Assembly: GCA_000989525.1 (NCBI GenBank)
Contig: LBON01000002.1
Span: 62,447-126,446 of the forward strand
Direction: 5' to 3'
DNA length: 64,000 bases
DNA from: a candidate division TM6 bacterium GW2011_GWF2_32_72
Lineage (GTDB): Bacteria > Babelota > Babeliae > Babelales > GWF2-32-72
Both the position numbers and the translations under genes were made by a program. Positions within the stretch are counted from its first letter, which is position 1. Each line of letters opens with the position of its first letter. The notes under the pieces were generated by a model. It searched no databases. It was given only the letters and a program-made list of their open reading frames with translations, and had not been told where the DNA came from. Positions 15,715 to 15,984 of the stretch are shown piece after piece.

Positions 15715-15744
15715 TTAGATTTGATCATTATCGGCATTACTCAT
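15715..15744 (-). CDS. Nine-residue upstream ORF before asnA (MSNADNDQI)
   Basis: The minus strand reads ATG at 15744, then codons for MSNADNDQI and TAA. A strong ribosome-binding site (GAGGAG) sits seven bases upstream. It lies between the attenuator terminator and asnA, 41 bases before the asnA start. Two of its nine codons are Asn and two are Asp, the product and substrate of AsnA. It may be a second control element acting on translation of asnA. Between it and asnA there is a near-copy of the asnA ribosome-binding region, ending ATA instead of ATG. Coding status is inferred from the ribosome-binding site and position only. Confidence 0.45.
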   Translation of the reverse strand: MSNADNDQI

Positions 15745-15774
15745 AAACTATCTCCTCGGTAAAAACAACCAAAC

Positions 15775-15803
15775 AAAAACCCCCAGCTACTTTGCTGGGG
15801 GTT
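15775..15803 (-). terminator. Attenuator terminator in the asnA leader
   Basis: On the minus strand, AACCCCCAGC (15803-15794), loop AAAGTA and GCTGGGGGTT (15787-15778) form a perfect 10-bp stem followed by TTTTTG. It starts 31 bases after the stop of the Asn-rich leader ORF. Its 5' arm can alternatively pair through CCCCAGC with GCTGGGG at the end of the leader ORF (15852-15846), which would prevent the terminator from forming. Confidence 0.85.
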
Positions 15804-15834
15804 ACATTTTTTTAAAATTTTTAAAATTAAAAAA

Positions 15835-15984
15835 TCATGCAAAAACCCCAGCAAGGAGATCATTATTATTATTTTGCTGCTGAGAATTATTTTGATTATT
15901 TAATTTAGAAAAATTTTTATCGAAAAAAATATTACGTGTTAGTCCTAAAACCAATGATAAGGTAAATAAAGAAGAACTAAACAT
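15835..15984 (-). CDS. Asn-rich 49-residue leader peptide of asnA (putative attenuator leader)
   Basis: Short frame on the minus strand from ATG at 15984 to TGA at 15835, preceded by AAGGA. It encodes 49 residues, 10 of them Asn, all AAT. They cluster as LNNQNN (residues 28-33) and QQQNNNND (35-42) shortly before the stop. The stop is 31 bases before a strong terminator that precedes asnA. Segments for a 1:2, 2:3 and 3:4 pairing scheme are visible: CAGCAA in the Gln codons (15879-15874), TTGCTGGGG (15854-15846), the terminator 5' arm and its 3' arm. The N-terminal third is hydrophobic, so a small exported protein is the alternative. The promoter is not clear: TTGACT at 16044-16039 could be a -35 element but has no well-spaced -10. 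Confidence 0.65.
   Translation of the reverse strand: MFSSSLFTLSLVLGLTRNIFFDKNFSKLNNQNNSQQQNNNNDLLAGVFA

Follow-up and report, generated by a model that had tools for sequence, protein, structure and literature searches.

The leader region of asnA, the gene for aspartate–ammonia ligase, is very probably a trp/his-type transcription attenuator that works through the ribosome and senses asparagine. The gene is found in a 64,000-nucleotide (nt) stretch of contig LBON01000002.1 of the candidate division TM6 bacterium GW2011_GWF2_32_72 (phylum Babelota), whose genome measures 0.99 Mb in ten contigs; the stretch as a whole is called the window here, and all positions refer to it. The proposal is carried by the anatomy of the leader, by its conservation in relatives, by pairings that exclude one another and by a concerted change of segments 2, 3 and 4 in one relative. 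Coordinates are collected in Table 1.

Upstream of asnA lies a frame of 49 codons that ends with TGA at 15837-15835. The initial annotation ascribed to it an AAGGA site of its own and ten Asn codons, all AAT and four of them consecutive, and every one of these features is present exactly. Among the 1004 short open reading frames (ORFs) of the window its clustering of Asn is the densest, with eight Asn in 16 residues compared to six in the runner-up; this ranking and the conservation described below rule out chance Asn richness of an AT-rich genome. At 31 nt past the leader stop follows the perfect terminator, equally as annotated: AACCCCCAGC-AAAGTA-GCTGGGGGTT (15803-15778), a stem of 10 base pairs (bp) with TTTTT at 15779-15775, folding at -20.0 kcal/mol and also called by a terminator scan. 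The complementarity noted between the leader end (GCTGGGG, 15852-15846) and the 5′ arm of this terminator (CCCCAGC) extends further than was claimed, as segment 2, TTGCTGGGG, pairs with segment 3, CCCCAGCAA, over 9 bp (2:3 fold, z -4.9 against shuffles). With further stems from the intervening loop, a longer, imperfect antiterminator hairpin can form, at -23.4 kcal/mol versus -20.0 for the terminator. Also present is the reported complementarity of CAGCAA, in the Gln codons before the Asn run, to TTGCTG, which lengthens with G-U pairs to TCTCAGCAG:TTGCTGGGG (segments 1:2). The triple of segments 2, 3 and 4 followed by a T-run occurs at a single site in the window, and once across 50 shuffled windows of 64 kb.

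The arrangement is conserved in the phylum, which was sampled with 101 genomes, one order throughout and mostly of 0.7–1.5 Mb. Six of these carry asnA, and the six AsnA proteins form a single clade (support 100/99 in a tree of 83 rows). Five loci, from four families, have enough upstream DNA to be compared: the window, L002, L004, L005 and L006, the AsnA proteins of the relatives being about 65–70% identical to that of the window. In the sixth, L003 (G074), the contig ends at the T-run, so that the leader region falls outside the comparison. All five loci have an Asn-rich leader (7–12 Asn), segment 2 and a terminator 26–34 nt past the leader stop. The peptides of the relatives, MAIGLTHRHSLINNQHSNCQQQNNNNPVVYLGYAQTKKP (L002), MFRRSALNLNQNNNQSNNNIAGVELRT (L004), MLDKNVFSIFDQIQNLKNLYTMLLSKKIISLISVIFNANNNQNQNNQQYNLLLGRYYVT (L005) and MKMVLLSHHSFFSMAISRGFCAACNQVNFQLNQNNNNQNNNQNNQHYSAGVCCMFMMHL (L006), are unrelated to one another and to that of the window, except for the Asn-rich stretch and the brief portion that carries segment 2. 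The cross-genome comparison proposed in the initial annotation hence finds Asn codons, segment 2 and terminator kept together, and the remaining peptide not; a terminator kept where the frame or its Asn codons are lost is seen in none of the five loci. Searched for at these spacings, the pattern CTGGGG..CCCCAG..TGGGG occurs in five of the 101 genomes, four of the sites being these asnA leaders, and the reversed control gives none.

Fold support was measured against dinucleotide shuffles, leader by leader, with p values combined over the five leaders. Folding in alternative states, another suggestion of the initial annotation, shows that in every leader both the antiterminator (2:3) and the terminator (3:4) beat the shuffles by a wide margin (p 3e-9 and 1e-8, respectively, when combined). 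In L005, segments 2, 3 and 4 change in concert from GCTGGGG/CCCCAGC/GCTGGGG to GCTAGGG/CCCTGGT/ACCAGGG, and both 2:3 and 3:4 are kept. Three terminator pairs are altered on both sides with all cells of the alignment paired. The 2:3 helix is likewise paired throughout, with one two-sided and two one-sided changes, a count within the range of the shuffles, 120 of 500 reaching it. For 3:4 the compensatory change counts as support, and with 2:3 it is consistent.

Each of the five leaders has a TTGAC box 60–86 nt 5′ of its ATG, and no promoter-like TTGAC box occurs between leader and asnA in the five loci checked. In the window this box belongs to an element with a weak -10 and a long spacer, which is only suggestive of a promoter. 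As a general sigma-70 promoter scan is uninformative (10 sites versus 17 expected), only the conserved TTGAC position is used as promoter evidence.

Table 1. Features of the asnA leader region in the window and related loci
Feature	Coordinates	Strand	Remarks
Promoter-like element for leader transcription: TTGACT (16044-16039), 19 nt, TATGTT (16019-16014)	16014..16044	-	evidence is the TTGAC position
Asn-rich leader ORF, MFSSSLFTLSLVLGLTRNIFFDKNFSKLNNQNNSQQQNNNNDLLAGVFA	15835..15984	-	AAGGA upstream; Asn-rich leader at the same place in 5/5 testable loci
Segment 1, TCTCAGCAG (other register CAGCAA, 15879-15874)	15877..15885	-	pairs with segment 2; weak, p 0.08 in this leader
Four successive AAT codons, presumed stall site	15862..15873	-	12-21 nt 5′ of segment 2, counted from GCTGGGG
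Segment 2, TTGCTGGGG	15846..15854	-	within the leader ORF
Segment 3, CCCCAGCAA	15792..15800	-	antiterminator with segment 2, terminator with segment 4; 5′ arm of the terminator starts at 15803
Segment 4, GCTGGGGGTT (15787-15778), terminator 3′ arm	15775..15787	-	overlaps the T-run (15779-15775); 3:4 z -3.7
Second small ORF, MSNADNDQI*	15715..15744	-	between terminator and asnA; GAGGAG upstream
asnA, aspartate–ammonia ligase, regulated gene	14621..15673	-	TIGR00669 equivalog 3e-128; PF03590 3.7e-106
Amino-acid permease (APC family)	13267..14562	-	58 nt past asnA
Second-class Asn-leader loci L116-L121, L123, L124, L126/L173, L128-L132			before asnA, Aminicenantia

The anatomy, which agrees with the trp/his scheme at each step, suggests the following course of events. 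Transcription would start 5′ of the leader, with translation of the leader peptide following behind RNA polymerase. Given ample Asn-tRNA, the ribosome would reach the stop, which lies 8–26 nt past segment 2 over the five leaders. In the window, a ribosome at the stop would cover segment 2, as estimated from usual footprints; otherwise segment 1 would tie segment 2 up. With segment 2 unavailable, 3:4 would pair and transcription would stop at the T-run ahead of asnA. Under a shortage of charged Asn-tRNA, the ribosome would stall on Asn codons and cover segment 1, leaving segment 2 free, so that 2:3 would form, the terminator would be blocked and asnA, perhaps together with the permease gene, would be transcribed; a low level of Asn-tRNA would, in other words, switch asnA on. 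The control codons lie 6–21 nt before segment 2 overall, the last Asn codons of the leaders other than the window being 6–15 nt 5′ of it. If the A site held the run's first AAT, the ribosome edge would be at about 15860 (assuming a downstream footprint of 12–14 nt) and 15854-15846 would be free; folding from near 15860 onward without segment 4 yields the antiterminator. Since the stop is 14–26 nt past segment 2 in the other leaders, 1:2 pairing or ribosome release would have to do more there.

Only very little amino-acid synthesis is kept in a published genome of the Dependentiae, the Babelota of GTDB (PMC6561590). GatB is found in 98 of the 101 genomes of the phylum sample and asparaginyl-tRNA synthetase (AsnRS) is over cut-off in 20, and therefore transamidation is probably the route to Asn-tRNA in most members. 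The occurrence of asnA tracks that of AsnRS, which is present in four of the six asnA genomes, that of the window included, versus 16 of the 95 without asnA (Fisher p 0.013). AsnRS uses free asparagine, so that a need for the free amino acid in making Asn-tRNA arises mainly in genomes that retain asnA, and the association speaks for a leader that senses Asn. The pairing of the two genes suggests that asnA follows a change in Asn-tRNA formation, from the tRNA-dependent to the direct route. An Asn leader before the AsnRS genes themselves was considered and rejected, as 19 AsnRS loci of the phylum show none apart from chance frames.

Several observations weigh against control by asparagine through a complete trp/his-type switch. 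The initial annotation distinguished the pairings 1:2, 2:3 and 3:4; the latter two are strongly supported by energy, but 1:2 is present in weak form, as a helix of 6–9 bp in each leader that reaches p<0.05 individually in one of five (combined p 0.008). Being only weakly better than shuffles, this "protector" helix is the less certain part of the scheme, and the L002 helix has no overlap with the CTGGGG that takes part in 2:3. L002 additionally has a short antiterminator (7 bp, -11.3 kcal/mol) beside a terminator of -15.4 kcal/mol. Most of the covariation comes from a single divergent lineage, L005, and its count alone is therefore modest; the case for the pairings takes its weight from energy, position and conservation together. 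Two asnA genomes, G069 and G070 (91% and 89% complete), have no AsnRS over cut-off, and if they truly lack it, free asparagine would not feed back on Asn-tRNA there. Lastly, Gln codons recur beside the Asn codons: they stand among them in all five leaders (QQQNNNN, NQNNNQSNNN, NQNQNNQQ, NQNNNNQNNNQNNQ). It is conceivable, if rather unlikely, that the attenuator senses Asn and Gln together, or general translation speed, instead of Asn alone. However, Gln codons are fewer than Asn codons in every leader, the codons nearest to segment 2 are Asn in most, and the Asn runs of the second class of leaders, from Aminicenantia (see below), have no Gln before the hairpin. CAA and CAG are moreover explicable by the need of segment 1 for complementarity to the TTG and CTG of segment 2.

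The attenuator reading also has to be compared with explanations in which the leader peptide plays no part. Small genes often end in intrinsic terminators and the hairpin is strong on its own, so the leader could be a small protein or small RNA gene with a constitutive terminator, asnA having its own promoter below. This is very improbable, given that an antiterminator partner complementary to the terminator arm lies within the ORF in all five genomes, that TTGAC boxes occur only 5′ of the leaders, that the peptide is not conserved except for its Asn codons, and that leader and terminator of the asnA type are found only with asnA in the 101 genomes. Alternatives of terminator and antiterminator are typical of riboswitches and T-boxes as well, and T-boxes control asnA in Firmicutes. 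That an RNA ligand or a protein, i.e., a T-box, riboswitch or RNA-binding protein, acts on the same two hairpins is nevertheless hardly credible, as no conserved aptamer-like sequence is found upstream, where a run of Asn codons in an open frame is all that is conserved. No Rfam model, amino-acid leader families and T-box included, reaches its cut-off at the window or the four relatives, and the T-box covariance model is not listed even at E up to 5, so that no T-box, riboswitch or known leader family is recognised there. The sub-threshold matches include Phe_leader and His_leader, the best leader models (24.1 bits, cut-off 55, and 23.2 bits, cut-off 49, respectively), as expected from the shape.

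Outside the phylum, the 78 asnA genes most similar to that of the window and with at least 200 nt upstream were screened. An Asn-run leader precedes 0 of 77 of these genes from other groups and is found in none from Bacteroidota and other close relatives of the enzyme; the one further match, L048, is an Aminicenantes genome. Traced from L048, 14 of the 24 asnA copies in Aminicenantia, which are spread over 23 of 142 genomes, have an Asn leader. These leaders have about 30 codons and an Asn-rich end, after which comes (W/R)-(A/V)-V-x-x-A-(Q/R)-stop or a motif much like it. Directly 3′ of the Asn run is a hairpin, YGGGYGG-N6-CCRCCCR, that includes or abuts the leader stop. It is paired in 77 of 77 cells with two-sided changes in three of its seven pairs, the Trp/Arg alternation of the peptide being a base-pair covariation from T-A to C-G. 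A motif search of the 142 genomes gives 16 matches, 11 of them before asnA, and a reversed control gives none; the five remaining matches look like chance or coding sequence and were set aside. Since no U-run follows the hairpin, this class probably acts by way of Rho or on translation. In most cases the spacer before asnA is G-poor and C/T-rich. Several of these leaders start 6–8 nt past TATAAT and may be leaderless, with translation beginning at the transcription start or immediately beside it.

A single candidate comes from a third phylum. In L144 (G308, of the phylum of G102), a leader with nine Asn codons, MKINLNMKKNQINNFQNNNDPFNPAVAIVWILFTDSD, is followed by a terminator, CCCATCATCGGCTGTCGGTGATGGGTTTTTTG, a 55-aa ORF and asnA, and the leader end can alternatively pair with the 3′ side of the terminator over 11 bp. 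Taking together the terminator class of Babelota, the probably Rho-dependent or translational class of Aminicenantia and this third case, it seems somewhat more probable than the contrary that control of asnA by Asn codons in a leader arose more than once. As the architectures are separate, their convergent origin is likely.

The genes and small frames around the leader add some further observations. The APC permease gene is possibly in the same operon as asnA; in G069 (L107), asnA is followed by bioY and then by a permease, of which the similarity was judged by eye. The second small ORF has comparable counterparts, Asp/Asn-rich near the start, in L002, L003 and L004 (MNTDDDNNNPP.., MNQEDNNL.. 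and MNDIDGNNKQ.., respectively), and in L004 its stop overlaps the asnA start. It is absent from L005 and L006. It could be a second, translational control step. The same 2-3-4 layout at another site of the phylum (L115, G014:C55:21945-22011) precedes an ABC permease of the branched-chain type (BPD_transp_2), and the frame ending just past its segment 2, YLFFSFAFTYRLF, is rich in Phe and Tyr, which suggests that other amino-acid leaders exist in the phylum. Elsewhere in the window, at 17755-19431 (+), is a row of ORFs of about 100 aa with signal-peptide-like starts and glycine-rich xxGxxxGxxxG segments, apparently a tandem family of envelope proteins.

Asparagine-responsive control of asnA is not new in itself. 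In E. coli, asnA is controlled by AsnC, which is a DNA-binding protein and not an RNA/ribosome switch. T-boxes control asnA and asnS in Firmicutes; as the leader described here would, they read tRNA-Asn charging and choose between terminator and antiterminator upstream of asparagine genes. A T-box binds the uncharged tRNA itself and works without a leader peptide, and the asnA leader shows no T-box match. The trp, his and phe attenuators (Rfam Trp_leader; His_leader, RF00514; Phe_leader, RF01859) are closest, with a leader rich in codons for the product amino acid before segment 2, a 2:3 antiterminator versus a 3:4 intrinsic terminator, and a stop near segment 2. The asnA leader differs from them in that it would sense Asn, matches no sequence family and has a weak 1:2 helix, and in its occurrence in a candidate phylum with reduced genomes instead of Proteobacteria or Actinobacteria. 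In Actinobacteria, cys operons have leader peptides with no clear terminator behind them (PMC1262725), and these resemble the Aminicenantia class in having a codon run near the stop and no U-run terminator. They concern another amino acid, gene and phylum, and the Aminicenantia class has a conserved, covarying hairpin behind its Asn run. According to a 2010 survey, no leader-peptide system had been shown outside Proteobacteria and Actinobacteria, the atypical ermC leader excepted (PMC2965389). The initial annotation knew of no leader-peptide attenuator for asparagine, which holds in the literature and Rfam searches made: none was found in the full-text literature, of which subscription papers, the survey of Lopatovskaya et al. 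(2010) included, are mostly no part. A comparative study of Actinobacteria makes no mention of asparagine, and a broad survey of premature terminators none of asparagine or asnA. What appears to be new is the amino-acid specificity and the phylum; the mechanism itself is not of a new kind.

The amino acids for which leader-peptide attenuation was described are limited in number, and most of the cases come from Proteobacteria and Actinobacteria. The asnA switch is kept over deep divergence, and only where asnA is kept, in a probably host-dependent phylum of reduced genomes with almost no amino-acid synthesis. This conservation argues that the control matters no less than the enzyme does. The switch would be a readable marker of a bacterium running out of host asparagine. 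If the repeated origin of Asn-codon leaders is true, asparagine would be added to the amino acids under leader-peptide control, as a solution that recurs outside Proteobacteria.
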